From positions 186,001 through 250,000 of the forward strand of contig JANFAH010000001.1 of assembly GCA_024663395.1 (NCBI GenBank): a stretch of DNA of 64,000 bases, in the 5' to 3' direction. The DNA is from Pisolithus tinctorius (taxonomy: Eukaryota; Basidiomycota; Agaricomycetes; Boletales; Pisolithaceae). Each line of letters begins with the position of its first letter. Position 1 is the first letter of the stretch. Both the position numbers and the translations under genes were made by a program. The notes under the pieces were generated by a model. It did not search any database, was not told where the DNA came from, and worked only from the letters and a program-made list of their open reading frames with translations. This document shows positions 16,234 to 37,395 of the stretch, piece after piece.

Positions 16234-16587
16234 CTCGTACATACAGTACTTATTGTTTGACCAGAGCTGCAAAATATGCAGTGCGACATCCTACACCGCA
16301 ATCTAAGCCGTGTAGTCGTACACAGAGCATGTCACACAATAGCCCAAGATGACTGGGTACTTTTTTAAAAGATAAATTACATCTGTATGGTAGCAGGAAC
16401 CCATTTACTGCTCGAGAGGGGCGGTTTTCAGAGTAACACGCCAGGACTGAGGTCACATCAGATGAATATACAGGCTGTCAGAGGGTTCCTCAGACATTCC
16501 CCTACCTTCTAAAAAATTTCAGACAATCAAAAGAGAATTTTAGTTGCGATCATTGTTGCAATGAAGTGATGCAGTAGCGGCGAAGTG
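16234..16587. other. Intergenic, no gene seen
   Basis: AT-rich. It ends with the left direct repeat GAAGTG (16582-16587) of the large element that begins at 16588. A second GAAGTG at 16563-16568 is noted. Confidence 0.5.
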
Positions 16588-16695
16588 TATGACGCTGCAT
16601 CTGTAACATTAAACAAACAAAAATAAAATAGCCGATTGCGCGACTTTTGCAGCACTGCGCAACTTAAAAACAGTGACCCGCAATTTTTGCAGTCA
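16588..16695 (+). repeat. Left terminal inverted repeat of the 20.8-kb element
   Basis: Starts TATGACGCTGCATC. It contains two similar subrepeats (TGCGCGACTT and TGCGCAACTT) and two TTTTGCAG motifs, and is followed by a poly-T tract at about 16707-16722. Confidence 0.65.
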
Positions 16696-16849
16696 CCCCT
16701 CCATTTTTTTTTTTTTTTTTCGAGTGGATCAATAAGACGTTTTTATCATAATATGAAGATACCCATACTACAGCTCAGAGATCTGACTACCTCGAGTAGA
16801 CCTGTGGCAGACGGAAGTACAAGTAGGACAAGGAAGAACGTGGGGGGTG

Positions 16850-18860
16850 TGTCCTCAGAGCCTTGCGTTAACTGCGTGGAGGACGCATTCTCTGCGCCGC
16901 GCTTCTCGTACACCTTCTGGAAAAGGCCTAGCGAAGCTTGTTGAGTCTCGCCAATCTTCTCCTTGATTTGCTCGGCAGTGACAGAAGCATCGCCAGGAGG
17001 CCTTTCGAGGCCAATTCACTAAGTTCGCCAGCGAGTTTCGACACCTTCTCCCTCTCGGCAGCATCAAGCTGTTCCTTGAACTCGTTCAGTGCTATCACAG
17101 GTGCGAATCAATGCGGGAAAGTGAAGCACCATGTAGTAAATACGTACCCTTCTGTGTCAACACAGACTGACTTGCCCTTGTTTGCTTCCTCGATGAGTTC
17201 CCAATGGGCCTTATCCACATCAGCATACTTCTCAGCGTCGGAGATCATGCGCTCAATGTCCTTGTCACTCAGACCCGACAAAGACGTGATCATCATAGAC
17301 TGGTCCTTGTTGGTTGCCTTATCCTTGGCGGTGATGTGGACGATATCATCTACAAGGGATGAGGAAGTTATCTGAAGACCTGTATAAGAGACATACCAGC
17401 ATCGATGTCGAAAGTGATCTCAATTTGAGAGACGCCCTTCAGGGCCAGAATACCGACGAGATTGAAGTTGTCAAGGAGTTTGTTGTCCCTGATGAGTTCA
17501 TGTTCACTCTGGAAAATCTTGACCTCGATGGCGGTCTGGCCATTGGCAGCGGTAGAGAAAACTTGCGACTTCTTCGTTGGGATGGTCGTACTGCGGTTGA
17601 TGAGTTTTGTCATGATACCATCGAGAGTCTCAATGCCAAGGGAGAGTGGGGTGACGTCGAGAAGTAGAATATCGGTGACATTTCCGGCGAGAACACCACC
17701 CTGGATAGCAGCACTAATGGCAACAGCTTCATCGGGATTGACACCTTTACTCGGCTCACGACCAAAGATCGACTTCACGGACTCGCCGACCTTAGGCATG
17801 CGGGTCATACCACCAACGAGGAAGACTTCGTTCACCTCACTAGACTTGACTCCAGCATTGGACAACGCTTTCTTGCAGGGATCAATGGTACATTGGATCA
17901 GAGGGCCGGTAAGGGTCTCAAATTGAGTGTGGTTCAACTTCAAGTTGATGTACTTTGGACCGGTTGCGTCCACAGTGATGAACGGCAAGTTAATTTCGGT
18001 CTGCATCGTGGAGGATAATTCAATCTTGGCCTTTTCAGCAGCCTCACGAATGCACTGAATGGCCATGCGGTCTTGATTGAGGTCAATGCTTGACTCTTTC
18101 TTGAATTCGTTGAGGATGTGGGTAACAAGAGTGATGTCAAAGTCCTCGCCACCAAAGTGGGTGTCTCCATTGGTGGACTTGACCTCGAAGACTCCTTTGT
18201 GCATCTCCAGAATGGAGATATCAAAAGTACCACCACCAAGATCGTACGTGGCAATCACTGATGATTCGGTACGATCAAGGCCATATGCCAGTGCCACAGC
18301 CACCAGCTCGTTGATGACTCGAAGAACCTCAAGGCCAGCGATTTGACCAGCATCCTTGGTGGCCTGCCGTTGTGCATCGTTAAAGTACGCGGGGACTGTA
18401 ATGACCACATGGCTAATAATAGTAGTCAACATTGGGGGACTCCTAACTAGTATACGCACAACTTACTTGACTTTCTTGTTGAGATACTGCCTGGCAGTCT
18501 CATGCATCTTGGTAAGTACCATGGATGATAACTCCTCAGCACTCTAGAAAGTATATTAGTTCTCTTACTGATCCAGAGGGGTGGGAAGGCATACGAATTG
18601 TTGTCTCTCACCACTGACGTCAACCTCGACAGCTGGTCAAGCATCTGGCTTCTTGACCATCTTGAACGCCCTGCAGATGATATAAGATGCTTTCCTATTT
18701 AACAATTGTCGCATGTACTAACCTGTGCTTCATGTCCTCCTGGACCTCCATGTCCTTGAACTTGTGGCCGATCAAGTGCTTAAATGCGAAGACAGTTTTG
18801 GTGGTGAGTGGACCAATGGATGGAGTTTGGTGCGGTGAAGGGCAAGAGCAGTGAATTTCT
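16850..18860 (-). pseudogene. Mitochondrial-type Hsp70 (Ssc1-like) pseudogene, introns retained
   Basis: Chaperone ATPase relic. Minus-strand blocks in order: [169 protein letters not shown] and TAEQIKEKIGETQQASLGLF. GT-AG introns remain (for example between FDIDA and DDIVHIT), so this is a DNA-level duplicate and not a retrocopy. Lesions: no N-terminal IDLGTTNS part, a TGA at 18637-18639 where relatives have Arg before [17 protein letters not shown] replacing the normal INEPTAAALAYG, loss of codons after FDIDAG in one reading, and a frameshift near the C-terminus (after ELASKG). It lies just inside the left inverted repeat, so it may be captured host DNA. Confidence 0.85.
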
Positions 18861-19144
18861 GTATCTTGGTCTTCAAGCTGGACGAGGATGGGGGCAACTC
18901 CCACCCTTGGCAGCAGTTTTTGGGCCTTCCCATGGTCTTTAGATATATTTATTGTGTACGCAATAATGTACCTAATAGATGCCATCATCAGGGGGAGGTT
19001 CCAGCCAATTCCAGCAATGGTCGCGAGGCACCCTCCCTGCCACTAATGGCAAAGATCAACGTTGTGGGGAAGGTAAGCTGAGCGTGTTACATCCCTCTAC
19101 AGAGGTCCACCCGTCTATCGGGCGAGATTCACCGTGTAGCTAGG

Positions 19145-19350
19145 CGGGGTCCCCGAGTGTTTTCTATCCCTCCCAGGAGGATTCCCAAGCCATTTTCCGT
19201 CGTTCATCTACCTATGTCCCAACCATCTGTCAGAGGCACTAATCAGACTGGGAGGGTTCTCTGAGTATTCTATCCCTCCAAGGAGGCTCCTCGAGGCTTT
19301 TCCTGGGAGCTCATCTAAGTATATACCGACTATCTGCCAGAGGTACTCCT
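19145..19350. repeat. Imperfect tandem duplication, period about 106 bp
   Basis: TCTATCCCTCC recurs at 19163 and 19269. ATCTG(T/C)CAGAGG(C/T)AC recurs at about 19225 and 19332. Both units are flanked by (T/C)CC(C/T)GAGT and AGGAGG. No coding meaning seen. Confidence 0.55.
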
Positions 19351-19688
19351 CCAGTTTTGTTTCACGAACTTTATGTTGCTATATCACAACGCATTAATAT
19401 GTCGTGCATGGAAAGGTGTATTGCATGATGACTAATACACAGCATGAGGTAATCTCGAGTCAAGGAAGAAGAGCGTGAAAATAGAACGTTCAGGGTAGAT
19501 GCGACTCGTAAATAGAAAAAGACATAGATCAAGATACGGACATCAAAATGTTGCCACCCCACTAGATGCAGGATCTTCCACAGACATCTGACGGACTACT
19601 CACCAGACGACTTTGATGTTGTCATGTCACCAAGATGCGAGGGGGGTGGGTACACGTGAGCAGAATTAGGATCAGGGAGGGGGGCAGT

Positions 19689-22600
19689 TCATCCAGGTGG
19701 TGCGAGGTCATGGTGAACGTTACCGCCAAAATGGTAACCTGGCCCATGAGCGACAGCAGCGTGTTGGGCACCATAGTTTGGATGCCCTGTGTTGTTGGTG
19801 GAGGGGACGTGGGAAGCACCGGGATCTGCGTACGAGCCATGGTAGGCAAGATGGGGTGGGGGATATGTGGGATGGTAAGGAGCCACTGGATGGTTGTACC
19901 ACCCTCCGTGTAAGCCAGCGTTGTAATCATACGGTGCACCCAGCATCTGCCATGGTGGCACTCCAGGCCCAGGGAGCTGATCAACGAAACCGTGTTGCTG
20001 AGAGGGATGGACAAACGACTCTTGGCGAGATATAGGATGGGGAGCGGGGTAAGGATGGGGCAGATGAACTCCACCCACTGTCAGATCGGAGTGCCCACCA
20101 TGATCGCTTCCCTGGGGACCATCAGCTTCTCCTTTAATTGTGGGCAAACGACCTTCCTCGGCAGCCAAAAGTCTTGCAGACACCGTAGACGGACACTCGC
20201 CAGATAATCCTGGCTCATCCAACTTGGGAAACGCCCGGCGCTGAAGGTTAAATGGTTCAGGCTCATCACCTGAACAGGTTCCACCCTGCACAACGTGAGG
20301 CCTTGGGCGCTCTGCTTGACTTGTCATTGGCGGATTGACATAGATCGCTGGGGGTTCTAAGTGGGATGGCTGTGGAATCGATGAACCCAATCCAGCAGTG
20401 GTGTCGCTCGTACAATGGGAGAAGAAGTCCATGTCTGAGGGGGCAGTTGGTCCGTCACCCTGTCCAGTAAAAAGGTCAGCGGCATCACGAGTATCCGGGC
20501 TTCTTGCAGCCGGCATAACCGATTTCAGGGCTAGACAATCGATAGTGATGACTCATTAGTAGTGCACATAATCGAGGTAATTGTACGCACCTCTAAAACT
20601 ATTGCCTGTCACTCCAGGAGTATCATGCGAGCGAGCGCTATTGCCACCTACAGTTCCGGGAGCATCAGATAAGTTGTTGGGAATGCTGTAGGACGTCCCA
20701 GAAGTGTCCAGCAAACTGGATATAATGGTGTCAGAAGAGGGTTCAAGCGAGAAGTGACAGGGATGGACAGATTATCAGAGTCAGTAGGTGAGATATTGCA
20801 ATCAACAGAGCCGCCCGGGGTAATAGTAGGGATGATCGCCTTTGGAACATTGACAGCCTCCTTGTGAGAGTCCCGAACATCGCATGAAGTACGTTCCTTT
20901 GCGGAACTGGGAATGTCAGTATGACGAGCAGAGTCGGGAATGATTGGAGGGGCGAGCGCCCGTGCAGTCTGAACGGACTCCTTGCAAGCATCCAGTGGAA
21001 CATCAGATCGAGTACCTCTCCGCACAGAAGCATCCTCTTCCGATGAAATATACGTCGGTGAAGAAGGAATGCGACGGCGGGCCTTGCTACTGGTCATAGG
21101 AGCTGACGAGCCTTTGAACCTTACAGTCTTGCTCCGTTTAGATACGCAGCCCTTGCTACACAAAGGTGAGACATTCCTTTTCTGCTTTGGATCGCCCACT
21201 TCACGGCCCTTGACTTTACGCTTACGTGACAATGGTTCTTGCGCATAGTCAGAGTCACTGTCCTCAGCACCATTCCTTTCGACCTCACCATCATCTATAT
21301 CCATCTCACTGTCCTGGACACCTCAGGATTGTTGATCGGGCAGGTAGTCATCGCTGGGCGACTCGCTTTCAGAAATCAAGCTATTGTCGGAGATGACAAG
21401 TTCGGAAGTTGTTGTGATTTTTGACTTGGAAGACTGTTGAGGACGCAATACACCCACGAGCTGCATCCCAGAGGTGATGGTGGAAGTACCAGGCTTGGCT
21501 GCAGGAACCTCTTCGACGCTGTCAGAAGCGTTGATGGCGGCCGAGTTTCCCTTCTCGACATCACCTCCAGCAGGTGCGGCCTTCTTCAGCTTAGTCTTCT
21601 TGACGTGAGTGGCAGATCGATTGAGGAGTCGAGCCGGTCCGAGGTGGTCAACTTCGAGACTACAGAAGATCTGCTTTCCCCTTGGCAGTTTCGAGTCAAA
21701 TGATGGCGGGGCGCTGATGATAACTGGACTCTTGGATGTGAGCAGATTTGCTATAGCTGCATTAGTACTCATCAACCATAAAAAAATGGAGGACATACTT
21801 TTGTTTTTGGGGTCGTGCCAGATGCAGAGTTTGCTTTTGCTAGTGTCCACAAGTGCGGCAACGAGCTTAGAACAGTCTGTGCATGTGAGGTCCGAGATCC
21901 CTTTCCCAGATGCCTTGCCGCGGCATTCCTCACCTGGGAAGATAACATCTGCTGGCCAGTTATACATGACGAGTGTGCTGCCTGCCAGCTGATTCGGGAG
22001 AGACTTCCAGGGAAATAGCTTTTGGGACGCCCATTTGAATCCAAAGTTTTCTTTAAGAATCGTTAGATGACTAGGAAAGCTAATATTGGAAGGACGCACC
22101 GATAAGCTTTCTAAGATGTTGTTTGACTTGATCATGATCAGGTCGCTCGCTATTTTCGATAATCTCGACTTCGTCGTCAGACTGATCTTTCTTGACATTG
22201 ACAGCGCATTGTTTCCCTTTTCCTCTGCAAGCAACTACCTCCTTAGCTTCTTCGGTGCGGTCTTCGAAGACTTCGGCCAAACTATCAAGAGACACCTTGT
22301 TGCTAAATAAAAGATATGAGACAGTGAATCACTAACACCAACACTACTTACTATATATGTGCCTTGAAATGCCCGATGATTTCATCGGTATCCGCACGAC
22401 AACGAGAATGAAAGAACTATAAAATGAATATTGAGTACATGGTATTGAAACACATCACGCAGTGACTTACTCCTTCAGCGCCTGCTGTAGTGAAGGCGTG
22501 GGCAAGTCCAACATCTTGGTTCACAATCTTCCCAGCCAACATGTACACACCTTCGATCCCATGCGCTTTTGAGAGCCCAGCAAACTATAAAAGAAAGCAT

Positions 22601-24074
22601 TCAGCACGTACTATAAGTAAGATGCCTAGGAAACACCTACGATGTGATCTAGATTCTTCACAGACTTGTTGAAAAGTTGCTGATGCTGAGCGACTGTTCC
22701 ACCTAAATCTTGCAGTTCTTCTGACTCCTTCCATGTTTCCAGGATGTCGATATAGTTTTCTGAGTATACTTCTTTGAAACGTGTGTAACACTGTTTCCTA
22801 ATATCTACGGAGGGGCTCCCTTCGATTGTGTGGTTGCCCTGAGGGAGCTGGGCAAGTTCGGATTCCAAGTTCTTTGCAAAATACGCCAAGTACACGTTCC
22901 AAAGATTTTGTGCATTCGAGCGAGAATATTGGCGATTGTAGCGGTCCTTGACTTGTTGCCATGGCATTCCTTGACTTTCCCCGAGCTTGCTGAATATTTC
23001 ATTGACCTGCCGAAAGCCCTCATTGAATTCATCTACAGTGGCGGCCGGCAACCTCCCATGAGTATATAGACCGTCGTTGCCATCCCCATAGTGCCCATCA
23101 GTCTCGACACTGAGCGTGTTTTCTTGAGAGGGTAGAGGTGACGGCTGATCGTGTCCTTGCAAAGGACTGGAAGCGGCGCGACAAGGAGTGGGTGACTCTG
23201 GACAAGTAATCGATGATGTATCAGAAGGTGGAACGATCTTGGAAGTCTGACAATATTAAATGATTAGATGATTGTCTGGGGATGACGAGTACTTACATTG
23301 TTGAAGGTAACGAAACTCTCTGTAGGCTCGAAGCCCAACCTATCCAGAGCCGAAGATGGAGCCAAACCATGGGTGCGAGTCAGCACTGATGTAGAATGTG
23401 GCTTGTGAACTATGGGCACTGATAAACCAGGAAGTCGTTTGGATGACACTGCCGCAGAATTGAGAGGGGGTACAGAAGGTCGGCGGGGAGGCAGCTTGGA
23501 TGGCACTGCCACAGTATTGAGAAGGGGGGGAGAGGGTCCGTGGGGAGGGGTCTTGGATGGCGCTGCTGCAGTATTGAGAGGGGGGGGAGAGGGTCCACTG
23601 GGAGGGGTCTTGGATGGTGCTGCCGGGGTATTGAGAGGGGGGGCAGAGGGTCCAGGCCCAGGATGTGGTGTGTCGTCGCCTTCAGCAACTAGATTGATAT
23701 AAATAGTGGAAGCGTCCTTCAAAAGCAGTAAATGACTCACTGGCAGCCGTACCAAGGGAGATGTCTGACCGAACCGTCAGGGTAGGCTGGATAATGGGTT
23801 CTGACAGGAAAGGATCGATATCGTCGTCAGCATCTCGGGAACCCCCCATTGGAGACATTGGGGGTTCGACTGGGGGCAAATGACCTCGGCGGAGTGATGC
23901 CTCACGAACTAGACCGGTGTCTCGAGTGGTTGCCTTGATTTTCTGGCGGAGACATGTTGGAGTCACCACCGGGGCTGGTGATGGATTGCGGTGACCACCC
24001 CCAACCTGGATGATGACAAAATCATCCTGTGTGCTTGTAGACTGTCCTGGATACACCAGGAGAGTGTCCGGCAT
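19689..24074 (-). CDS. Large multi-exon protein of unknown function beside the KDZ transposase
   Basis: Begins at 24074 (MPDTLLVYPGQSTS) and continues through several exons joined by GT-AG introns, for example after SLGTAAS, after FVTFNN and after KNLDHIV. Blocks: four 19-residue Pro-rich repeats (GPSxPPLNTxAAPSKTPP), then MPWQQVKDRYNRQYSRSNAQ, LWNVYLAYFAKNLESELAQL, YTRFKEVYSENY, KAHGIEGVYMLAGKIVNQDV, RCRADTDEIIGHFKAHIY, FPWKSLPNQLAGSTL, NWPADVIFPGEECRGKASGK and GISDLTCTDCSKLVAAL. Similar arrangements recur in large predicted proteins of Agaricomycete repeats; I know of no assigned function. An in-frame TGA at 21323-21325 splits the frame before GVQDSEMDIDDGEVE, either a real end or a CGA to TGA change. 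The distal exon, ending near 19689, is Pro/His/Gly-rich. Exon edges in the last third are uncertain. Confidence 0.55.
23437..23665 (-). repeat. Coding minisatellite, four 57-bp units
   Basis: Four in-frame copies of a 57-bp unit encode 19-residue Pro/Ser/Ala-rich repeats with the pattern PLNT(P/A)AAPSKTPP. The last copy is the most diverged. It lies in the large unknown gene, and because 57 is divisible by three, copy changes keep the frame. Confidence 0.7.
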
Positions 24075-24935
24075 GTCGATGCAGGTCGCGAGGAACTACC
24101 CAGAGGGTCGAGCACTCCTGACTCACTAGAACCTCACATTTTTTTCTGAACGACATCAGATAGTGTGAGATACGGGATAGATAGTACAAACCAAAGTTGC
24201 AAAAATTTCCAGTTGCGCAGAGATTGGTGAATGGAGGAAAAGTACAACCAGGACTGGTGCACCGTCTTTATGCAAGATGAGCATTGCGGCAGATCTAGTG
24301 AGGATCGCAACAGGCATCTCAAGAGTAAGGCAGTCGGAAGCTTTCAAAGAAGGAGAAAGGACATAATAATTCCAAGCCGAGGAGTTGTCTCGAGATGGTG
24401 ATGGCGAACTTCAAACGGAGAGGTTGGAGAGGGTGCGGAGAGGCTCTAGGTAAGAATGTGAGAGTGTTTGCTGTGATTTTTTCCCCGGATTGCAAAATAT
24501 CCTGAACCCTTCTACTCAATTTTTGGGCAGAATGACCATAGCAGTGGTCATTGCGGGTCATCTACGAATAGTGATCAGTAGTGGTAAGGCACTGAGGATG
24601 GACTCGGAGTGCGACTTGGAATGCTGAGGAAACGTGTCAAACCAGTGTGCAATAACAGTAGCCAATCACAATCTGAATAGCCTTCCTACTGAAAGGAAAA
24701 CATAGCTAGAACACCACCGAATGTGTTTTTGCAGGCAGAAAGAGTCGGAAATGTTGCACTACTTCCCCCCCCAACGAATGTCACCACAATTCATACGTGT
24801 TATGCTACAATTTTATCCTAACTGTGACCGTCTGATACTTGGCAGCAAGTGTGTAGTACTCTGGTTTTGTACTTTACCGACGTGTCACAACTGACTCAAG
24901 TTAGCCAATTGTCCCTTACTGAACTTCGCAGTTAT
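24075..24935. other. Divergent intergenic region, no gene seen
   Basis: About 860 bp between the start of the large minus-strand gene and the ATG of the small plus-strand gene. It would carry both promoters. No clear TATA box could be chosen. Confidence 0.5.
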
Positions 24936-25695
24936 ATGGGACGCACTGCTAAATACTTCACTCTACACGAAAGACAGGCTGCTGAATGCAGACAGAAGGC
25001 CATCTATGCATTGACAAAGTAATTATTCCCATGTTTCTACAGCTCAGTCCTCAATTACAACACATTTCAGAGGCAAAGAACTACAACCTGCTCAGAATCA
25101 CCGTGCATACCACAAGCGTGCTGGACGGCATCTCAGTAAAGATGCTCTCCGTTCGATGATTCCATCTGTGTCAAGTATCATCCATCCCGGTGTCATTTCC
25201 TCTGTCCCATCCCTTCCACCAGCTCTTATCGCCTATGCAACGATACCTCTACCTATGTCACCCCTATTTCTGGAAGCCGCTGAGAGTGCTGATGCTTTGG
25301 ATGAATCAGATCTACTTAAGTGGGAAAGAGAGCCTCCGTATACGTATGCCGAGCCAGACCCAACACCGGAAGAACAAAGGTTTACACGCAATCTGGTGGA
25401 TGTCATGCTCGGGCGACGTGCAAGGCTGTTAGGAGAAGCAGATACTCATCGAGCGAAACATCTTGAAAACAGAGACCATCAGCAGGTGTTCACTGAACTG
25501 ATGGGCAATATCGCAGAGAAGTTAGTGCGATGGTCGGCCGTATATGATACTATTGGGGGTCCTGGCATGTCAGACGACCACAACATTCGAATGGCAGCAT
25601 GTTGGCTGCAGTGGCAAGCTCAGGATATCTACCATATTACACAAGAAGCGTTGGAATTGGAAAACGGCAGGGATCGTCATGCAGGTAGTTCATAG
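24936..25695 (+). CDS. Small basic/helical protein abutting the KDZ transposase gene
   Basis: Two exons, 24936-25018 and 25071-25695, with a 52-bp GT-AG intron in phase 2; 235 residues. It starts MGRTAKYFTLHERQAAECRQ, a Lys/Arg-rich helix followed by QNHRAYHKRAGRH, which suggests DNA or RNA binding. The C-terminal half is acidic and helical (YTYAEPDPTPEEQRFTRNL, DVMLGRRARLLGEA, WLQWQAQDIYHITQEALELE). No named domain recognised. Its TAG stop ends at 25695 and the KDZ stop on the other strand begins at 25696, so the two genes converge with no spacer. The tight packing suggests it belongs to the same element as the transposase. Confidence 0.65.
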
Positions 25696-28600
25696 TTACA
25701 CTGGTATGCGAAGTATAAGACATTGGAGATAACGACGAAAATCGCGCATATCCGCCTTGCGCAAGTTTGTAATGTTGCAGCCTCGCAGAACCGCTGTGAC
25801 CTGAGCCAAAACCCAAAGTCCACAGTCGTACCCGTTTGATTGCAGAGGGCCGAGCTAGTAATTTGATAAGGGAGCCATTTTCACATGTATTTTTAGTACG
25901 TACTGCAATCGGGTGCGCAGACCAGCTTCCAAAATCTCTCCGAGGAATTCCGAGCCTCTTCGAGGCTATGAGGGACAGGCGAGTGACGAGATGGGCAATA
26001 TCCTGTGAATCGTCAGTAAGAACGCTAGACAGAGATGATGGAATACCTTGACATCGCGTTTCCAAGGTTTTTGTTCTGCAAGACTGTCAAAAAGGAGTAT
26101 TTGTTTTGAAGTAAACTTGACAATGCAAACGACCCAATGGCCGGCTGGGGATGGTCGATGGATGGGGAGTATCCAGATGGGTTTCTCCCAATAACATGTT
26201 CGTGAGGTGTTGCGCCACAAAATGTTGTCTTCAGCGTGGTATTGAATGCAGGGGAGATCGTGAGTCGACAGTATCGCGCACCATGCAGCATTCAAAGACA
26301 GAAATTCTGAGTAGAGTAGTGCAGCACAGCCATTGATACAGCTATCATTGAGCAAACCGGTGGGGGAAGCGAGCCGCTCATAGTCGTCCAGCTCAAAGAT
26401 GTACCGAGGAAAACCATCCTGTGATTGTTGGACGCGCCTTGCATAAACGCCGCAGACGAGAGGCAGGTCATTGTGGACATTGATCATATCAACCACGGGG
26501 ATCTGTGTAGCAAATTAATCAGGACTTGTGCGCTCGAATGGAACTTACGAAGGGAATTTCCCAAACAAGATTCACGTTATGAGTCTTCTGATCCTCATCG
26601 TCGTTGGACAAACCATCTTCATCGGCATTGGATGGTACATCTTCGAGAATGTCTGTGAACGCAGTCTGATCGGGGTCCAAAACGTGTTCTCCTGCATCAA
26701 CATCAGTCAGTGGTAACGTGGAGTCTGCCTCGCTAAGGCCATCCGCAGATACATCACATTGAATAGGCGGCAGCCATCGCAGCTCAAGAGGGGCAGGGGT
26801 ACCGGCGAGGGAAGTAGAAATAGCCTGGGCGCTGCGGGCTTGACTCGCATAATGAACCGTGGAGGCCAACGGCATGGGCCACCTTTCCTGCATCTTGGCC
26901 AGTGATTCGCGATGTTGTTGAAGAACCAGAGAGTACATAGAATCTTAAAGATCTTTAGATCCTGAATATAATCAGCGGTACCTTGACTTACTTTCTGGCT
27001 GCCGAATTGCAAGCTCAACAGCACACAGCTCGCTGCCAAACCATCGGCACATGTTGTCGGCCTCCATGCCAAGGCAGTGTTGTTCTTCGAGACAGCAGTC
27101 GGTCTTCAGGACTGCTCTAATGCCCTCTCTCACGTCAGAGTCTTGCAACCACTGCGGGATTTCTCCAATAGAGGGAGTGATCCAAACATCTTCGAAGAGG
27201 GATTGATCGTTACGTAGTTCAGCTAATTTTGTTGGGAGCGGCGAAGGAAGGGGGATGCCGGATGAGGCGTCATATAGTTTTGCGAGACGTTCACAATACA
27301 TGTTGAATTTTCGGATGGCCGACATGAGTGCGGGCTGACACTTTGCAATTGCTTTGCGAGTCTGCTGGTGGAGCTTCGTACCTAGAAAGAAATGATCAGC
27401 ATTGCGACACCGAGTCGAAGGTTCAGCGATACTACCCAAGGCTTTCTGCTTTCCCCCTACTGTGCGATCGAGTTTGTCCCACTCAAAAAAGCTCCCAATT
27501 GCCTGTTTCCGGATGTTGATCTTCAAATCGCAAGCCAAAAGAAGCATCCGAATGAACTCCATGTCGATGCCGTTGAGCTCAGGAAACTTGTCATGGATGT
27601 TGAGGGACGCATATAGTAGGTCCACCTTGTTTAAAAGACGATCATGGCTGCGCTCCAAACTCTCCAGAGCTGCGAGGGTATCCTCTGTCGCATCCTTCTC
27701 AATGATTGCACGTGCAGCTTGAAGTGCTCGGTCAGCAACCTCTAAGTCAGCCTGCAACACGAGTACAGTATCCAATTCTTTTTTCAATCAAGCCGGCGCA
27801 TCTAAAGGCGAAGAATGAATGATGCAGTCTAGTAGATGTGGAAATACTTATGAGCCCGTATGGAAAGCTGAGCGCTACATTGGCTAGCCCACTCGTTCTG
27901 CAATTCTGGGATATCAATTCCGCAATCACCAAGAATCTGATGCGCTTCGCTACCTTGTTCAGCAATTCCTTTCCTCAGTCGGCGTCGAATCCAGTCACCA
28001 AGATCGTTTCGCATCTCCAGCCCTATTGCAGCAGCGTGACAATCGATAAGCCAGATACAGTGCTGGCGCTAATCGAACGCTTTTTCAGTTCTGGGTAAAC
28101 TAGAGTAATAAAATGAACTTGCCGACGATGCTCGCTCAACGCCAATGAGCTTGGTGAAACAGGACCAGAGGCATTCAGTGCCCTCTCCATCAGAAAGACC
28201 GAGTCCTGTAGTAATGCAGGGGTTATAAACGAGCTGGCACGCCCATTCGTGGCCATAGGCGTGCATTGCAGTTGTTGCAAAGTGGATGTGACAAACAATT
28301 TCATTATCAAGGATTTCAAACTGCAGGAAGTCAGTACTAGTGTATGGGGATGAGATTTGTAAATACCTTGTCTAAAGAACGTGCGAGAACGCAACCAATA
28401 TCATACAATGCAACGACAGTTGCAGTGGCTGGCAAGTGGGAGAAGAGGTGTTCGAGAAGGGCAACGCTATACTTCTGTTGCTCACCAGGCGTGTCGATAT
28501 TTGCAAAGAAGAGAGGGATGTCGTGACAGCATATCAACGCCATAATTCCAGTGTCGTCGAAGCAGTCCATTGTGGCCTTCTGCTTGTTGCCGTCAGCTGC

Positions 28601-29936
28601 TTCATATGACGCTTCACATTGATCGATTGCTTCATCAGGAACTTCGACACGCCATTGTCTCGGTGGCCGCTTATGCACTCGTTCGATCCGGCATCCAACA
28701 TTGTCAACTTGAACCTTGGGAATGAAATATGCGGGGTCATAAAATGCGGGACAACTACCGGCGGAGTGCCAATGACGATGGTGAAAGTTCCCATCAAGTG
28801 CTATATGAATATCACCACCGCCACTCAGCGGCCATCCAAATGTGCGACCTGCGAAACACGCTGGGCACCTTTGGACGAGTATGGATGCACATTGTGACAA
28901 TGAGAACTGTTTGGAAGATGGTGGGATCGCAGTGAATGACGGTTGCTGAGCAGATTGCGTGTGGTTGAGATGGTCGAGAACAGTTTGGCGACAACGTTTG
29001 ATAATACTTTCGGCACGGCGCTCAATATGCACTTGCAAGATATTGTACCACTGGACAGCATTGCCAATGCTACGACGGAACGGATCTCGAATCACTCCAC
29101 CCTGTGTGCCATACTTGTAAGTACGAGCAGGAGGTCAGCAAACAAACGACTGACCTCTCGGGTGGTCATCCAGAACCCTCGGCGTTCATAATGTGCATTG
29201 AGCGCAGAGGCGAGGGCGTTGATCGAGTCGCAAGAACGTTCAAACAGTGCCCGATAGAAAGCAAGTAATTCCACAGAAACGGCCAGGCGAGGTTGAGAGG
29301 GGGCAGTGGGAAAGAGTCCGGAATGTAAGAGTAATTGAGGAAGCGATGTGCACACACAACTTAGAACTGTAACAGTTGCAAAACCTGAAATGAGATCAGC
29401 CTCCGCGAGGAGATGTGAGGATGTTACGCACGGTCAAAATATAAACAGAGTAGGGAAGAATGCTTGAGTTCACATCCTGCCTGACAACCGGAGAGTGGTT
29501 TATCATAGGTTATAAGTGGTTTTCCGACGGTTTCCGCCATATATTGGAGATATGGCTCGATAATCGTAGGGATAACTGCCATCCAATTGTCGTACAGCCG
29601 GTCGACGGCCACGCTTGGCATGGAATAGTCAGCAACATCTTTGGGCGACAGTTCATCACCGGAGTGCTGGATAGTATCAGTGTCGTCCAGCGCATCTGGA
29701 ATGGTTGGTTCAGGGGGAGGGGAGTTGATAGTAGACAATGGACTGGGAGATGACTTGTGATTCAAAAGATCGCTCAACTGTTGAAGGAGACATTGCCATT
29801 TGGCACTTTGACCTGGAATGATAACATTAGTCTGCGTTTTCCTCTTGTTATGCCGCTTTGTTGGACTCGAGAAATGCTGGCCCAAGCCAAAACTTGTGCT
29901 AGGCAATGAGCGGCGAGTCCCAGGATGGGGATGCAT
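25696..29936 (-). CDS. KDZ-type transposase with C-terminal Ulp1-like protease domain
   Basis: Transposase of the Kyakuja-Dileera-Zisupton class, apparently intact over about ten exons. It starts at 29936 (MHPHPGTRRSLPSTSFGL). A Cys cluster follows (GCQAGC, LLCLYFDR, LSCVCTSLPQLLL across an intron), then HSGLFPTAPSQPRLAVSVEL. The RNase H-fold catalytic core has IHIALDGNFHHRHWHSAG (first Asp), VVALYDIGCVLARSL (second Asp) and GLGLSDGEGTECLWS (Glu). Between these are KQKATMDCFDDTGIMAL and FFANIDTPGEQQKYS. A long helical region follows (WIRRRLRKGIAEQG, LESLERSHDRLLNKVD). The C-terminus is a Ulp1-like cysteine protease with GHWVVCIVKF (His), ILLFDSLAE (Asp) and QSNGYDCGLWVLAQ (Cys) formed across two short introns. 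The stop is at 25696-25698. One intron, after GVERASS, appears to use a GC-AG pair. No premature stop seen. Confidence 0.85.
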
Positions 29937-30054
29937 GTTTCAGAGAAAATATGAAGGCAAAAAAAACATACCGTGGGACATATGAAACATGGGAGCCGTA
30001 CAGAGCCAACGTTGGAGGAGGCTCCCCGAGAGCATCCCCGGCGAGTTTGCGAGA

Positions 30055-31399
30055 TGGTAGTATGAGGGTTGAAGAGACGTGATGTAGTAGGGAGGCCTGG
30101 GGGCCAGAGGTGAGGACACAGCCACATTAGGCTTAGTCAGACGGAGGTAGACACGGACGTGGACATGTTCAGTAGATACATCTTCCTACAGCTTGCCTCG
30201 AGCTCAGCTCATCGCTCGTGAGGCTCTCTCCCACTGCTCCATCTTGGTGACGATAGTGCGATTCGACCCACACCAGCTTCCCTTTTTTTTTCCATCTCAG
30301 TCACCATCATCTCCAGACTACTTTTCGGGCTGTGTCAGTTGCAATGTGGCAGCGACTCTTCGTTTTTCATGGCGACTATCAGAATGCACATGAATGGCTT
30401 ACAATAGCAGATCAGCATGTCATCATCCGTGATAAAGGCCACGAGAAAATCCAAGTTGTCTCCTGCAAACTAGACTCGAAGGCGTTTGAGTGGTTTTCAC
30501 AGCTCCCTATGGGTTTTAAGAAACACTGGGACATTTTCAGAGAATTGTTTGTCGCAAAGTGGGTTGATAGGCTAGGGGAAGTAGAGATGAAGGAAAAAAG
30601 GTTAGCTCTGTTACAACGTTTGAATCCTCTCGAGGCAGGTACCCTTGCCCTGGATGTCTTCTTTACTGTTCCAGAGGTGGAACCTGACATGAGGCCAGCC
30701 ACTGAGGGTGAAAAGCAGAGGGAGGAGAATGGAGTACCCTCGTTCAGTTGGGCGGATGATGTCGACACAACTGTCATTCCAGCTACCAGACTCGTTTCAC
30801 CTGTTACTCACGTACCTCGTGACTTCTCAGGCCTTCGTTCGAGCACCAAGAACCCTTGGGAAAGTCTAAACCGTCACCACCATCATTCTTGCCCACGTAC
30901 ACAGAATTTATGCCATTCACACAAGTATGCTACATGCGGTCATGCACCTCAACCCCCTACATTGTCGCAGTTACCACCGAAACCACTGGCGCCAGTGCCA
31001 GTTCAACTCGTCGAGACCATTCGACACCCTCATGGGATTGTGCTGACAAAGCCTGTGGTTAGGACAATGTCACCTTCCACAGGTACTTGTACAGGTTCAC
31101 CTTCATGGTGTTCATGCATCCTTTCTTTAGGTTGGAGCAGGGACCCCCTTCTTGCGGGTCTTTCCAGGGTTTTGGAGGTGTTAGGGTGGAGGCGAGACTG
31201 CAGCGTGGTGAGGACGCCGCTATGTTTTGAAGGGGGCACGTGTAGTAGGGAGGCCTGGGGGCCGGAGGTGAGGACACAGCCACATTAGGCTTAGTCAGAC
31301 GGAGGTAGACACAGACGTGGACATGTTCAGTAGATACATCTTCCTACAGCTTGCCTCGAGCTCAGCTCATCGCTCGTGAGGCTCTCTCCCACTGCTCCA
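30055..31399 (+). mobile_element. Short non-autonomous LTR retrotransposon (gag-only), 1.3 kb
   Basis: A 159-bp sequence is directly repeated at 30083-30241 and 31241-31399 with two mismatches seen by eye, and ends in CCA. Similarity extends weakly upstream on the left to a TGGTAGTATG start at 30055. GCGAGA flanks the element (30049-30054; 31400-31405), a 6-bp target duplication. Just after the left repeat TGGTGACGATAGTGCGATTC looks like a tRNA primer-binding site. A purine run (GAAGGGGG) precedes the right repeat. Only a gag-like frame is inside, so mobilisation would need another element's polymerase. Confidence 0.7.
30332..31288 (+). CDS. Gag-like protein of the 1.3-kb LTR element
   Basis: Frame of 318 codons at most. 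The N-terminal 110 residues look like a retrotransposon Gag core: LFVFHGDYQNAHEWL, KIQVVSCKLDSKAFEWFSQL, WDIFRELFVAKWVDRLGE and MKEKRLALLQRLNPLEAG. The later part is Pro/Ser-rich, and the frame runs into the right LTR, so the true protein probably ends earlier or continues only as read-through. No protease, reverse transcriptase or CCHC knuckle is visible. The start is uncertain: the first ATG in frame at 30332 lies 90 bp after the putative primer-binding site. Between the repeats, this is the only coding content. Confidence 0.55.
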   Translation: MSVAMWQRLFVFHGDYQNAHEWLTIADQHVIIRDKGHEKIQVVSCKLDSKAFEWFSQLPMGFKKHWDIFRELFVAKWVDRLGEVEMKEKRLALLQRLNPLEAGTLALDVFFTVPEVEPDMRPATEGEKQREENGVPSFSWADDVDTTVIPATRLVSPVTHVPRDFSGLRSSTKNPWESLNRHHHHSCPRTQNLCHSHKYATCGHAPQPPTLSQLPPKPLAPVPVQLVETIRHPHGIVLTKPVVRTMSPSTGTCTGSPSWCSCILSLGWSRDPLLAGLSRVLEVLGWRRDCSVVRTPLCFEGGTCSREAWGPEVRTQPH

Positions 31400-31405
31400 G
31401 CGAGA

Positions 31406-32038
31406 TGGTCTAGATATGGTGGGATGAAGGTTTGGGGAAGGTGAGGTGAACACGGGGCGAGCGTAGGGGCAGGAAGAGCACCACCCAAAAATGGAGAACG
31501 GTTCTCAAAGTGATTCTCAAACCTATTATTAGTACCGGTCAGGTGATTCCGGCGCGGATGGTGGGTCTATTAGATACATTGTTTATGTCACAAAAAGTAT
31601 ATCTAATAGACCCTTAATCCCACTGAAAAGTGGTGCCTAAGGTGGCAACTCCGGGCAAGCGAAAAAGCGGGTGATAAAATGAGTACGAAGAGGCATCAAA
31701 TTGAAATATGTTCATGGCTGTAGTATTCATCTTGTCATGCGATGGGCTGTGTCGGTGGTGGTTTCGATGAAAATATGGTATGGGAATCCGATGTCGACTG
31801 CAGGTGCCCACACTCGCACTGGTAGTTGGTACATAGCAAGTCGTGTTGCAGTATATCCGTCTTCCTCAGGCTCCTTGGCACTTGCATCGTCGGTAGTCTT
31901 GCATGGTGTCATGATGACGAGGGCAGTGGAGCTGATTCTAGTGCAAGGTAAGTCCACACCTGTGGGTGCGTGACTGTGGGAAATGATGTCTCACTACTGA
32001 GACAGTGGCGACACACCAGCAATGTCGATGCTGTGGAC
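31406..32038. other. No gene seen; contains a 14-bp hairpin
   Basis: GGGTCTATTAGATA at 31563-31576 is repeated inverted at 31600-31613 with a 23-base loop. The rest has open frames on both strands near 31700-31970, with no recognisable content. Confidence 0.5.
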
Positions 32039-34069
32039 ATGAGCTCCATCGCCCAGCTAGTGTTCCCGCCCCTTCCACAGCCCAGCCTTGGTAGATGGCC
32101 AGCTAATATCCAGACCGCTCATGGAACCATCAAGAAAGTGTATGATCAAGCTCTTTATGTCCTGCGATCTGATAGTTTTCCGGATCCCACTCGGGTTTCA
32201 TTCCACATAGACGCACTCACTTCAACTGCACTTCCCATCCTCGAAGCACTTATCCCTAGTGGTGCTAGTCATGAGGACAAATCTCTGCCTCAGGAGTGGT
32301 TGGTGGGTGTCGCAAGGCTCATTGGGCAGGCAGTGCAAGATCTTCGGGACGTGGCACAGGTTGTTAATATGTTGTATGTCTGATTTTCTGTCGGTGAATG
32401 GTGCTTGACTTCTTTTCAAGTGAACGGCGAGAGGTTAGTATACCTGAGCTTGTAACAGAGTCCAAGAATGGTCGGCGTGGACAGCCTCAGAAGTCTGTAT
32501 GCCCTGACTTCCTTACTGAGGTTGTCACCAATAATAGCTGTCACATCAGTCTCAGTGAACTTGCTCACATCCTAGGCATTAGCCACATGACACTCTGGTG
32601 AACTATGCAGAAACATGGCCTGAAGCAGAGCTACACCATATTGAGCAACGATGACTTGGATGTAGTTGTGAGGGCATTCAAGAAACACAAACCAGAGTCT
32701 GGATTCCGCTATTTACTTGGACACTTACACCATCATGGGATTCAAGTCCAACAAAAACAAATATGGCAGTCATTGTCTCACGTTGATAGACTAGGTCAGC
32801 AGTTACGTGAACATTGTGTTATAAAACGCAGGGTGTATCGTGTCAAGAGGTCAAATGTGCTCTGGCACATCAACGGACACCACAAACTCATCTGATGGGG
32901 ATTTGTGGTCCATGGAATTATTGATGGTTACTGTCGAACGGTGTGTCGCAGTGCTTACTGACATGTTTGATTGACCTTACGCTTTCAACAGATTACTGGT
33001 TTATGTGCCAGTACAGACAACCTCGCATCAACCATTTTCAATGTATTCCTCAATGCACAGGCAGAGTATGGAATGCCATCACATATGAGAGGTGATCGTG
33101 GTGGTGAAAATATTGACGTGGCTACATACATGGTAGCTGTCCGAGGTCCCAACCGTGGATCATTTATGTGGGGATCGTAAGTCACAACTACATGCCAATG
33201 GCTGTCTTTTTGATGTCATGTACTACAGGTCTACCCGAAACTCGAGGATTGAACGTGTGTGGGTCGAAGTTGGAACTCAATTTGTATGCCACTGGTGGGG
33301 ATTTTTTTCTCAGTGCGAAAGACTTCACTGCCTTAATCCTGGTGACAGCAGTCACCTGTGGCTCATTCAAAGGCTCTTTCTTCGGGAAATTAATGATGAT
33401 TGTGAGGACTTCCAGTGCGAATGGAACCTTCATCCAATTAGCAGGCCAACGACCAATAATAAAAGTCCACAGGTATGTGAAGCATATCATTTTAAGGATG
33501 GGCCGCACTCAATTTTACTGACATATCCACAGGATTTATGGCTTATCAGTAATGTCACGCTAGGAGAATACTACGACGAATACGAGGGGATCCATCCCCT
33601 CACTATTGAGTGATATTATGGCATTCACGGCCATGTACAGGTTCGGCAGAATGGCCAAACAGGTGCGGGCCATTGCCCTGATGAGGAGCCAGAGGCCGAT
33701 GACGAAGAAATTGCCACAAACGAACATAATGGTATTCTGAGAAGGGTTGGAGCTGACCTCCAGGAGCAAGTGTGCCATGAAGCAGTGGAAGTTCCTGGCA
33801 AAGGATTGCCTTTTGCATGTGTCAAAGACGAGGCAGAATTTTGGTCAGTGCTTGACCGCGTTGTCATTGAAGATATCACACCAGCAGGGTATGGAGATGA
33901 TCATGGGACAGAAGGTGATGAATCAACAGAGGAGCACATTGCAATTGGTCGGCAGGGAACACGGTTTGTTACAGTATCATTAGCAGAGCCCATATGGGCA
34001 AGACGGGCAAAAACCTGGTGTCAGGCACTCGCTGTTCTAACTCTCTTCAATGCAGATGGTTATTTTTGA
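32039..34069 (+). pseudogene. Integrase-core (DDE) protein of an Agaricomycete element, inactivated
   Basis: Retroviral-type integrase core (the broad fungal/metazoan integrase core family, rva_4-like). Visible exons: 32039-32373, 32421-32940, 32992-33176 and from 33229, joined by GT-AG introns in phase. An N-terminal helix-turn-helix region has ISLSELAHILGISHMTL and GFRYLLGHLHHHGIQVQQKQ. The core has VLWHINGHHKLI*WGFVVHG, IIDGYCRT, YGMPSHMRGDRGGENIDVAT (second Asp) and SRIERVWVEVG (Glu), followed by FQCEWNLHPISRPTTNNKSP. Three in-frame TGA codons (32599-32601, 32893-32895, 33611-33613) stand where I would expect Arg. The first catalytic position is Asn (32872-32874, AAC) where the family has Asp. 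Past the third stop the frame stays open to 34069 (EAEFWSVLDRVVIEDI). The protein cannot be active as written. Confidence 0.75.
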
Positions 34070-34266
34070 TCCCCCCCTAGTCATACATGCAATGTATTTA
34101 CCGTACATATGGTCATGGTCAATTCAGTGGCTGTCGAGTTGAGCACGAGCACAACACTACTGGCTTAGTCAACATTAGACAGACACATCAGAACTCAGAG
34201 TCCTGCCTCAAGCTTCAGTCTTCACTCACTCCTTCTCTCATTGCCGGTAGTTGGTCCAATCCCTCC

Positions 34267-35921
34267 ATGCCAGATGTCAACGAGCGGCTCTGCTGCTATT
34301 TCAATGAGAATGGAAAACAATGCAGTTGCAGGATGTTTACCGCACCTGCCAACAAGAATGCACGTTATCACTGTCATGAGTGCATGCATGGTTTCAGTAA
34401 TCACCCAGAAGCACAGTTTAGCAACAAATCCCCGAAATTGACTATGGATGTAAAGGTAGAGCCTGCAACTGGCAACTGGCTTTTGGATGTGTTCCGTCAA
34501 TGGAAGACATCTCGCACCATGGAGTTGCCCAACTCCCTCCAGCATGTATGTGAAGAGGTCCTGAAAGGATTCCGTGCTGGTAGCAGTGGGACACAACGAG
34601 TTACATCAACTAACATTAAGGTGTGTTGGACCACTTCCTAAGCCAGTGTCCATACTCCAATATTGACAATCACAGAAACCTAACTCTACTGGGAAGCGGG
34701 TCCCATCTGGTAATCATGATGGGTCCCAGCAGGATGTTTTAGTTGGAACGTGGTTACTACTGATCAATGCATTGGATGAGGTATGTGCTATTGAACTAGC
34801 TCCTAACAAGTATTAATCACAGATTTACAGGCAGGTGAATTGATCCAGACAAAACCACTGTCGAGAACAGAAATGTACACAGCAGAACATCGGCAGTGTG
34901 TGCACACTGGTGCCAATGCGGCTAAATTCGCATTCCGGCGGGACTGGACTCATGACAATGTCGACAAGTACCTCAGAGAACATGTTTTCCCACGTCTGAT
35001 GGAGTATGCACTTATGCACAAGAAGGGTAAAAGTAAGGCAAGCTGTTGTTGGAAACTTGCCTTCAAGGAGAAACAACGATTCGGACTCGCAGTGACTGAG
35101 GACCTTCCAACTGGCCAGGATCTATTCTACTATCGAGGACGGTTTAAATGTGGCACAGATTCGAGCATAATTATAGGTATGAGTTATGCCTTCCACCTGT
35201 TAAACTACTAATATATCAACACAGCATTGTGCAGTCATGTCCCGGAAGAGGAATATGCGTCTTGGGGTCCAAGGAAGCATCAGGAGAGTAGTGAATTCCA
35301 GCCAGCAAAGCTTCGAGAGAGTAGCGACTCCATCCCTCCAGCAGCCTCGAGTGAAGACTCCGAAGACAAATGGACAATATTTGAATCCGTGATGCGGAAG
35401 CAAGGACACAGTCAGCACCCTGGTACGATGACCAGAACCCTGTTCTAATCACAGCTGACCTCTGAATTTTCCCCTCTGTGCAGACCAACCAAAAGGGAAA
35501 CGAGGCCGATATCAATCACTGGTAATCGAGATCGAGAGTTCAACTGACTCTACTCAGCCACCACCCAGCACCCAAGTTCCTCGCATCCATGGTGGATCCA
35601 TCAGGCCATCAACATGTAAGTCCCATTTCTTTGTTTTTGACATGTGCTCACACCACAACAGTTTTTCTCCCATCAGGTGATAGCGACTTATTGGATGTGG
35701 CTGACCTCCTGACTCAATTGAAGGGTCTCTCGGTTTCTCCACCTCCACCCACATTCGTTGGCTGGGCGCCTCTCGCCACTGCGAATCGCTATGTCTCATT
35801 GCCCCCCAGATTTTTACAGGATCTTGATCCCTTTGGATCACTGGTCAACTCCCCCCTCTTACACCCACATGTAAACCCGTGGTCACCTGATTATTTCCTT
35901 GGTGCGGCCGACTACCTTTGA
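34267..35921 (+). CDS. Cys-rich protein of unknown function, intact, next to the integrase-core gene
   Basis: Six exons: 34267-34620, 34676-34780, 34831-35176, 35225-35422, 35484-35615 and 35662-35921. All are GT-AG and phase-consistent; 464 residues, no stops. The N-terminus has a compact Cys/His cluster (LCCYFNENGKQCSCRMFT then YHCHECMHGFSNH), probably a zinc-binding module. The middle has NWLLDVFRQWKTSRTMELP, FAFRRDWTHDNVDKYLREHV, FPRLMEYAL and WKLAFKEKQRFGLAVTEDLP. The C-terminus is Ser/Pro/acid-rich with KGKRGRYQ, a possible nuclear signal. The function is not recognised. It starts 198 bp after the integrase-core gene in the same direction, so both may be genes of one element; unlike that neighbour it has not decayed. 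Confidence 0.65.
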
Positions 35922-36159
35922 TTTGGAGGTAACATGCTATTGAGTATGAATGGTCATCCACTTACATCTAACCGTAATCCACATTCATGTCTATGGAATT
36001 TTGAGGTACCACCCACATTCGTTTAATCAGCATTCATGTCAATGCAGTTACATCCTGTAATCACTTGTCCCCAGCATTAATATACCATTGATCTCAAGGC
36101 TTAGCCCTCTTCGCAAATATTGTTGTGGTTTGTTTACTCCTGTCAGTGGAGCCAGCCAC

Positions 36160-37229
36160 ATGTCCTGCTCGTCGATGCAAGTCCAATCCCTCTGCAAAAT
36201 GATGGATGACCAAACCCAAACCATGCCCATGCAACGACATCACATGTTCTACTACAAAGACAGAACCCATGTCTTCCAGGTGAGTTACCTAGCATCGTAG
36301 TAACATCTATCAGGCTGTTTACAATACATCCAGGCTCAAAGTTCACTATTCAAAGTCCATAAGAGTGTTCTCTCCGACAAATCCATTGCCTTTAAGTCTA
36401 TGTTTGCTGCACAAGACAGTACTGGACTTCCCCAAACTGATGGACACAGCGACGAAAAACCAATTATTGTGCCTGATCAGGTCTCTGACCTAGGATTTGA
36501 ACTGTTTCTGTCTGTGTGCTACAACAAGTAGGTCGATCCATATGCTGCCATTGAAAATATGCTATATATTGATGTTGTTATTTCAGATGGCACCCAGATA
36601 CTTCACAGGCATCTGAAACCACCCTTCTTCAGCTCCTTGAGCTTAGTTGCATGTATGAGTCCAAGGCCATCCGTGAACATGCCATCAAGCAACTCACCTC
36701 TCACCACTATACCATCAAACCCATCACACTGATCTCCATTGCCCTAAAATATCATATCAAGGACATCTTCTGTTACACATTCAGATGGCTCATCCCAAAG
36801 CCTATAAACGAACTCAACCATGCCGATTATGAGCTTCTTACTGTCCCTGTATGGATGACACTCCTCAGAGTCAAGGAGCGACTCGAACTCCACCGCCGTA
36901 TTGTGGCGTGTGAGCCACCACCTATGGTGCATTCACCATGTTGCCAGGACCACAAGAGGTGTGTTGATGACTGGCACCAAGTATGGTGGAATGGCATGGG
37001 CCGGTACTTGCTTGATGGTCATAGTCCTCAGCCATACAACTCTGCGGTCAAGCAATTTGAAGGTCTTAGCTATGGGAGTGTCGACCCCGAGTGTCGGAGA
37101 GTGATGCTCGCTCTTGTCAAGGAGGGGAAGGCATTTCAGCACGAAGATGATCTCATTTACTGCACAGCTCGGGGACTGGCAGAGTACTTGATCCACGAAC
37201 CCTTCTTCGGCGATGATATAGACATGTGA
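36160..37229 (+). CDS. BTB/POZ domain protein, intact
   Basis: Three exons, 36160-36279, 36334-36527 and 36587-37229; introns of 54 and 59 bp, GT-AG, phase-consistent; 318 residues. The BTB fold is seen as FYYKDRTHVFQ (exon 1), then SLFKVHKSVLSDKSIAFKSM, FELFLSVCYNK and WHPDTSQASETTLLQLLELS. Downstream is a helical region usual for this Agaricomycete family: MYESKAIREHAIKQL, LISIALKYHIKDIF, KERLELHRRIVACEPPPM, then CCQDHKRCVDDWHQVWWNGM and GRYLLDGHSPQPY. BTB domains mediate dimerisation and often recruit cullin-3 ubiquitin ligases; here the partner is unknown. The stop lies 74 bp from the right inverted repeat of the 20.8-kb element, so the gene is probably cargo. The upstream in-frame Met choice is uncertain. 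Confidence 0.8.
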
Positions 37230-37302
37230 TCCTACAGTTGTACATCTAGTGTCGTGGCCATCCACCCAAAAAATCACAGGCCGTATATATTTAAAGTATT
37301 GA

Positions 37303-37389
37303 TGACTGCAAAAGTTGCGGGTCACTGTCTTTAAGTTGCGCAATCACCCGATTTATTTTGTTTGTTAATGTTACAGATGCAGCGTCATA
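37303..37389 (-). repeat. Right terminal inverted repeat of the 20.8-kb element
   Basis: The reverse complement begins TATGACGCTGCATC and matches 16588-16695 apart from small indels and a 19-base block absent here. It is followed outside by GAAGTG (37390-37395). Confidence 0.65.
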
Positions 37390-37395
37390 GAAGTG

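Follow-up and report, generated by a model that had tools for sequence, protein, structure and literature searches.

A nested KDZ transposon and a captured SSC1 fragment in an IS3EU-type element of Pisolithus tinctorius that carries a BTB gene

Transposons of the IS3EU superfamily are described with TA..TA termini as a general feature, usually a 6-bp target-site duplication (TSD), and a transposase near those of IS3/IS481 (Kojima and Bao 2023, PMC10045372). In the families that carry a TET/JBP gene, this gene lies between the transposase gene and an alpha-kinase gene facing the opposite way, and the TET-carrying families of rust fungi have TAYGG..CCRTA termini (Kojima 2025, PMC12730594). Uptake of host DNA by DNA transposons is described elsewhere: histone H3 captured by a hAT element is a case of housekeeping-gene transduplication in fungi (Dhillon et al. 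2019, PMC6710886), and Pack-TYPE transposons of plants hold host coding DNA inside DNA transposon ends (PMC8903248). Here we analyze a 64,000-nucleotide stretch of Pisolithus tinctorius (positions 186,001 to 250,000 of JANFAH010000001.1, assembly GCA_024663395.1; this whole stretch is called the window). It is part of contig 1 (C1; contigs are numbered in this way below) of a 92.5-Mb assembly, and contains a 20.8-kb object bounded by terminal inverted repeats (TIRs), which very probably consists of an 8.05-kb IS3EU-type element interrupted by a KDZ transposon.

As far as the available text of these papers goes, the outer element resembles IS3EU in its TA..TA termini, TIRs of more than 30 bp, 6-bp TSD, integrase-like DDE transposase and accessory genes. 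It differs in a BTB gene that is mostly head-to-head with the transposase gene, in a third gene without a Pfam match, and in captured fragments of the mitochondrial Hsp70 gene SSC1 or the squalene epoxidase gene ERG1. Neither Hsp70 nor BTB is mentioned in the available main text of PMC12730594. In the open-licence literature we found no earlier account of IS3EU elements with BTB, Hsp70 or squalene epoxidase, no search having named squalene epoxidase, and none of gene capture by IS3EU. Pfam scans of the open reading frames (ORFs) of the window returned no TET/JBP, for which no dedicated search was made. With the histone H3 case, as the available text presents it, the locus shares a host housekeeping gene that was taken up by a DNA transposon, amplified and then mutated; however, superfamily and gene are different here, copy number is low, two different genes sit in the same slot of related elements, and the decay is CpG decay in a basidiomycete, whereas it is repeat-induced point mutation in ascomycetes there. 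Pack-TYPE transposons are described, in the part of that account available, as non-autonomous, whereas the present family carries transposase, third and BTB genes, with the transposase broken in both near-identical copies. The finding thus combines known kinds, an ordinary-looking KDZ element being nested in an unusual IS3EU element.

The two termini of the 20.8-kb object can be aligned over their full length with gaps, and their initial 24 bases match at 24/24 positions without gaps (random placement at 20,000 positions of the window gave no more than 14/24). They read TATGACG...CGTCATA and are directly flanked by GAAGTG, at the coordinates given by an earlier reading made from the letters of the window and its ORFs (the sequence-only reading). 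A sister copy on C6 (stretch L016, 301-7631; the C6 copy) has the same ends, the different TSD CCGGTT, and a length of ~7.3 kb. It matches the window at 16585-18901, 31641-31972, 32833-37075 and 37060-37389 with 93-98% identity, but lacks 18902-31644, which is the KDZ part, and, by an internal deletion, ~0.86 kb of the 5' region of the transposase gene. At the KDZ site the C6 copy is uninterrupted and contains a single GCAACTCC, while the window carries GCAACTCC on both sides of a CACC...GGTG segment. Because the C6 copy, flanked by another TSD, encloses the same interior between these ends, the two outer ends of the window belong together. Taken together, these results make it very probable that three mobile elements are nested in the 20.8-kb object, which is not one giant transposon; in the nest explanation, held with that confidence as a whole, the outer unit is an 8.05-kb integrase-type element of IS3EU type with transposase, third gene and BTB gene. 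Pfam matches were obtained for each of KDZ, Ulp1, integrase core, BTB and HSP70, the gene content listed by the sequence-only reading. That reading had proposed a giant KDZ transposon with BTB and chaperone cargo, which does not hold, for the BTB and Hsp70 genes belong to the 8.05-kb element and KDZ to a separate 12.7-kb insertion. Its second suggestion, a composite formed when a KDZ unit inserted into an older element of integrase type, is borne out by the KDZ ends, their 8-bp TSD and the C6 copy without KDZ.

The Hsp70 piece of the outer element derives from SSC1. The resident SSC1 gene on C13 has 8 exons (manual splicing), and its protein is 100% identical to a Pisolithus tinctorius entry. 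The fragment spans from inside the third resident exon to just before the stop codon and keeps the intervening introns, which indicates that it was copied as DNA. In a protein tree of exon 6 (16 of 120 listed proteins chosen; Phlebopus, Imleria and Hydnomerulius were lost by a mismatch of the cut pattern), both element copies join P. tinctorius SSC1, within Pisolithus, with support 100/97. The changes were polarised with three older Hsp70 copies, described below, as outgroup; among 84 shared differences, 9 were unplaceable because the outgroup copies disagree and 2 had a third base. The resident branch shows 1/2/23 changes at codon positions 1/2/3 and 6 in introns, the element branch 10/8/16 and 7 in introns, and the changes private to the window copy are 14/12/13. 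These codon-position counts, together with the tree position, argue that the captured piece is decaying close to neutrally and that its capture occurred within the P. tinctorius lineage. A slight lean of the element-derived changes to position 3 (10/8/16, one-sided binomial 0.067) speaks against purely neutral decay, and the captured Hsp70 may have passed through a brief constrained phase.

A functional Hsp70 under selection, serving as a chaperone that aids transposition, would agree with the 364-aa exon open in both copies and with a ratio of nonsynonymous to synonymous substitution (dN/dS) of 0.13 between host and C6. However, the first exons, with the gene start and the nucleotide-binding start, are not present in the window; a 1-bp frameshift near the Hsp70 C-terminus is common to both copies, the window copy having an extra 2-bp gap; and the low dN/dS is due mostly to the host branch, the window-private changes being flat over codon positions. 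Such a function is unlikely. Still less likely is horizontal acquisition of the fragment with the element from another species. Shared divergence of ~11-12% at third positions and in introns, which is high at first sight, and a strong codon-position bias might suggest it; but the element copies group with P. tinctorius inside Pisolithus, and third-position plus intron changes are similar on the host (23 + 6) and element (16 + 7) branches.

Older SSC1 fragments were found at eight loci (C92, C2 twice, C8, C23, C33, C124 and C10), three of which were read (L053-L055: C92, C2, C10), and where read they lie beside IS3EU-like ends. They are 88.3% identical to the host gene and 87.7% to the element, while host and element share 93.2%. 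The older copies seem to go back to an independent, earlier capture of SSC1.

The KDZ insert shares with KDZ transposons, as the available descriptions give them, the KDZ domain, the CxC cluster, the Ulp1 domain and the 8-bp TSD given for Zisupton and a Dileera; Kyakuja is reported there with a 7-bp TSD and no TIRs, in contrast to the 8-bp TSD found here. Each of the 5 KDZ copies with both ends near those of the window, the window included, has its own 8-bp TSD (GCAACTCC, CTCAGTCC, GTCCCATC, AGTTCACC and GAAAAACT), a count that covers close copies with both ends only and not broken copies or distant relatives (~79% or less). The copies C3:4099358-4110822 and C36:336838-350189 have their ends at distances of 11.5 and 13.4 kb; in the other two the distances are 47 and 56 kb, presumably by further insertions, and the pairing rests on orientation and matching TSD. 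The KDZ-Ulp1 transposase had been called open; this was checked in part, both domains being present in separate minus-strand stop-to-stop stretches. Inside the insert, a long terminal repeat (LTR) element has one 343-aa frame between its terminal repeats, which gave no match in a Pfam scan and was judged gag-like by eye. A clear TSD was not seen at this element, and its repeat stretch was matched at more than 25 further places. The insert as a whole looks like an ordinary KDZ member, notable only as the nested part.

Copies of the outer element's ends were searched genome-wide, with the best 40 of 87 candidates scored for the left end and the best 40 of 78 for the right, so that copy counts are lower bounds. 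An exact 6-bp TSD was seen in 12 of 17 family copies with both ends, in 12 different sequences, one of low complexity (TATATA); the sequence-only reading had pointed to such copies as a check. Most of the fetched end matches are paired ends of elements of ~630 bp that resemble miniature inverted-repeat transposable elements (MITEs). Their ends are ~95% identical to those of the window, most of those read have their own TSDs, and the likeness to the window ceases ~70-85 bp inside the ends (7 loci compared). Stand-alone repeats with these ends, named by the sequence-only reading as what would contradict it, are therefore real and numerous, but the C6 copy ties both ends of the window together.

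With these copies in hand, the giant transposon can be weighed. A single 20.8-kb unit moving KDZ transposase, integrase, BTB and Hsp70 together is suggested by the TIRs and 6-bp TSD that enclose the whole stretch. However, the C6 copy without the KDZ part refutes it as the ancestral form, the KDZ part occurs elsewhere as copies and has ends and TSDs of its own, and no second place pairing the KDZ part with the outer element appeared among the copy searches made; it is highly improbable. Two unrelated MITE insertions 20 kb apart, facing each other by chance, are hardly conceivable even in a genome where these MITEs are common and many have their own TSDs, for the MITE likeness ends shortly inside the termini, the GAAGTG flanks match, and the C6 copy refutes such a pairing by its interior.

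Two other classes were considered but not adopted. Polinton/Maverick elements carry DNA polymerase B, packaging ATPase and capsid genes beside the integrase. The locus recalls them in its 6-bp TSD, integrase and Ulp1-like protease, but the Ulp1 domain sits in the KDZ insert, and none of the three genes was among the window ORFs scanned by Pfam, which were part of the ORFs. Starship was dropped on the TIRs and the integrase, a tyrosine recombinase not having been sought.

A second capturing family of IS3EU-type elements (C6:947601-955246, C44:419022-426704 and C6:2905106-2912624) is bounded by perfect 20-bp TIRs, TATGGCG..., with 6-bp TSDs; since an identical 6-mer was a condition of the search, the TSD does not count as independent evidence here. 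These elements carry the transposase, third and BTB genes, with an ERG1 fragment between transposase and BTB (PF08491, E 2.3e-33, in the C6 copy L049 at 5880-7594; also in L050, L052 and L048). Over 1.73 kb the fragment shares 93.9% identity with a C48 gene that has a 446-aa frame, and it too lacks the gene start; a second 446-aa copy lies on C8. A related element on C22 holds an ERG1 fragment 87.3% identical to the C48 gene, and another fragment lies on C17. As read from the sequences, two IS3EU families in one genome carry 5'-truncated pieces of housekeeping genes in the same head-to-head slot.

BTB proteins generally act as ubiquitin-ligase adaptors or host-factor binders. A search with the last BTB exon of the window element gave 50 matches, which merged into 48 loci. 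An rva_4 transposase locus lies within 10 kb at 34 of the 48 (the chance is at most 1.2% per locus; the best 150 of 464 rva_4 candidates were scored), and the orientation is head-to-head in 32 of these 34. The remaining two are the window element and the C6 copy, where BTB follows the transposase and the head-to-head position is occupied by the Hsp70 fragment. Identity of the homologues to the window protein runs from 92% down to 23%, which indicates that several lineages are involved, loci of one family not being independent. Above the Pfam cut-off, the BTB domain was found only in the window and in the C81 copy (2.9e-8). In 6/6 comparisons of the window with other loci, BTB dN/dS was 0.15-0.27, at dS values of 1.7-2.9 that are near saturation. 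For the third gene, there was no Pfam match at E 1; direct search returned homologues only in C81, C90, C6, the window and C36, and a weak homologue occurs in the ERG1-carrying family (E 2e-7 for the pair). The BTB gene does not look like stray cargo; it seems to be inherited with these elements as a standing accessory, under constraint between families. Its protein might benefit the element in one of the two roles named for BTB proteins, ubiquitin-ligase adaptor or host-factor binder.

A wider proposal is possible, although we lean against it at present: that the IS3EU elements of mushroom-forming fungi form a three-gene lineage in which BTB is a dedicated helper, e.g. a Cullin-3 adaptor removing a silencing factor, and that the divergent transposase/BTB promoter region is a place of repeated capture, where 5'-truncated pieces of host housekeeping genes (SSC1, ERG1 and possibly another in the C81/C90 element) come to lie head-to-head with the transposase. 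Its probability is lowered by the distant homologues, in which the BTB domain falls below the Pfam cut-off.

The integrase-type transposase has D, D and E motifs visible in the alignment by eye, and Pfam returned no match to HHCC. In the C81 copy Pfam reports HTH_11 in addition to rva_4. In the window the codon of the first catalytic Asp reads Asn (32872-32874) and an in-frame TGA follows seven codons on (32893-32895); no functional transposase is expected from the window copy. The gene is broken in both near-identical copies, the C6 copy being without its 5' part. Between window and C6 there are 176 differences in 7,188 aligned columns. It can be seen that 172 of the 176 are transitions and 150 are at CpG; at 124 of the latter, C6 has CpG where the window has TpG or CpA. 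The observed/expected ratio (o/e) of CpG is 0.59 in the window element, 0.80 in the C6 copy, 0.74 in the KDZ part and 1.06 in the host gene, and 0.95 in the 10 kb to the left of the element. Methylation may be the cause of this decay.

Several observations weigh against the readings given above. For the outer element, a matching TSD is absent in 5 of the 17 family copies (L017, L020, L021, L035 and L013), and no empty site was found in this assembly, where the 600-base left flank matches itself and, at 67-70%, two other places. The termini TATGACG differ from the TAYGG of rust IS3EU in the available text; three sister elements here have TATGG..CCATA. The 10 kb to the right of the element has a CpG o/e of 0.41, below that of the element itself, so that CpG loss is not special to the element. 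For BTB, 14 of the 48 loci, some of them short fragments, have no match within 10 kb among the rva_4 candidates scored, and the query was the exon after the BTB core, not the BTB domain. The domain lies below the Pfam cut-off in two other families (E 0.027 and 0.082) and was not seen by Pfam in stretches L045 and L070. Among closer copies BTB dN/dS was 0.21-0.62 in 7/7 comparisons, which suggests that recent copies are less constrained.

The nest can be accounted for in four steps. First, a cut-and-paste IS3EU-type element of 8.05 kb, with TA..TA termini, TIRs, 6-bp TSD and a DDE integrase transposase, carried the transposase, third and BTB genes, as its ends, TSDs, second copy and genes show. 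Secondly, before the window and C6 copies split, DNA-level copying added the 1.95-kb SSC1 fragment head-to-head with the transposase, as introns, breakpoints and tree position show; the copying itself might have been abortive gap repair or template switching during transposition. Thirdly, a KDZ element of ~11.4 kb (12.7 kb including the LTR element) entered the window copy, giving the 8-bp duplication seen there. Finally, the window copy lost function through CpG-to-TpG decay, as would be expected if its DNA was methylated. The features are collected in Table 1.

Table 1. Features of the nested elements in the window (positions counted from the first letter of the window)
Feature	Position	Strand	Basis
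TSD GAAGTG, left copy, 6 bp	16582..16587	.	abuts left terminus
Left TIR, starts TATGACGCTGCATCTGTAACATT	16588..16695	+	108 bp; repeat search and alignment
SSC1 fragment, intron-containing, 1.95 kb	16852..18801	-	HSP70 PF00012, E 5e-155; 90.7% identical to resident gene
TSD GCAACTCC, 8 bp, left of KDZ element	18894..18901	.	comparison with C6 copy
Nested KDZ transposon, 12,743 bp, CACC...GGTG ends	18902..31644	.	absent from C6 copy
Ulp1-type protease stretch	25969..26514	-	PF02902, E 8e-6
KDZ transposase domain stretch	28340..29134	-	PF18758, E 4e-26
CxC1 cysteine cluster (KDZ-associated)	29095..29433	-	PF18802, E 5e-8
Short LTR-type element inside KDZ element, 1.3 kb	30083..31399	+	159-bp terminal repeats, 98.7% identical
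TSD GCAACTCC, 8 bp, right of KDZ element	31645..31652	.	comparison with C6 copy
Integrase-type (rva_4) transposase gene, intron-split	31952..34066 (outer limits approximate)	+	PF24764, E 1.7e-14
Third gene: Cys-rich stretch, then unnamed domain	34081..35445 (limits approximate)	+	ORF reading
BTB-domain protein gene, three exons (manual reading)	36160..37229	+	PF00651, E 1e-5 one exon, 1e-7 joined exons
Right TIR	37303..37389	-	87 bp; repeat search and alignment
TSD GAAGTG, right copy, 6 bp	37390..37395	.	abuts right terminus

Some further observations concern the relatives of the outer element and the assembly. The interiors of the C81 and C90 elements (L041 4325 to L042 1993, and L043 4297 onward) are 99% identical, and their terminal repeats differ just inside the first 20 bp, as if ends had been exchanged. 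The C81 element has an extra gene in the head-to-head slot (L041 6142-7288), possibly another capture, whose ORF received no Pfam name. The long interval on C19 showed no recognisable captured gene in its ORF list. Six family MITE copies (L029-L034: C177, C51, C42, C32, C10 and C7) adjoin telomere repeats directly (CTAACCCTAACC beside TATGACG), ~11-35 kb from contig ends; a single insertion, spread among chromosome ends by copying of a subtelomeric block, probably explains them. Parts of C36 recur on small contigs (C191 at 9557 has the same flank as C36 at 350189, and C203 repeats C36 565000-571600), and the assembly seems to hold some allelic duplicates.

If BTB is a standing part of fungal IS3EU, some genes annotated as BTB in mushroom genomes may belong to transposons. 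In that case BTB would join TET/JBP and the alpha-kinase as accessory proteins that possibly explain how the elements cope with silencing. As the SSC1 and ERG1 captures come with breakpoints, introns and branches that can be dated, they make gene capture by the IS3EU superfamily directly testable, and the window and C6 copies, as a pair, cleanly document how one transposon copy decayed at CpG sites relative to its sister.

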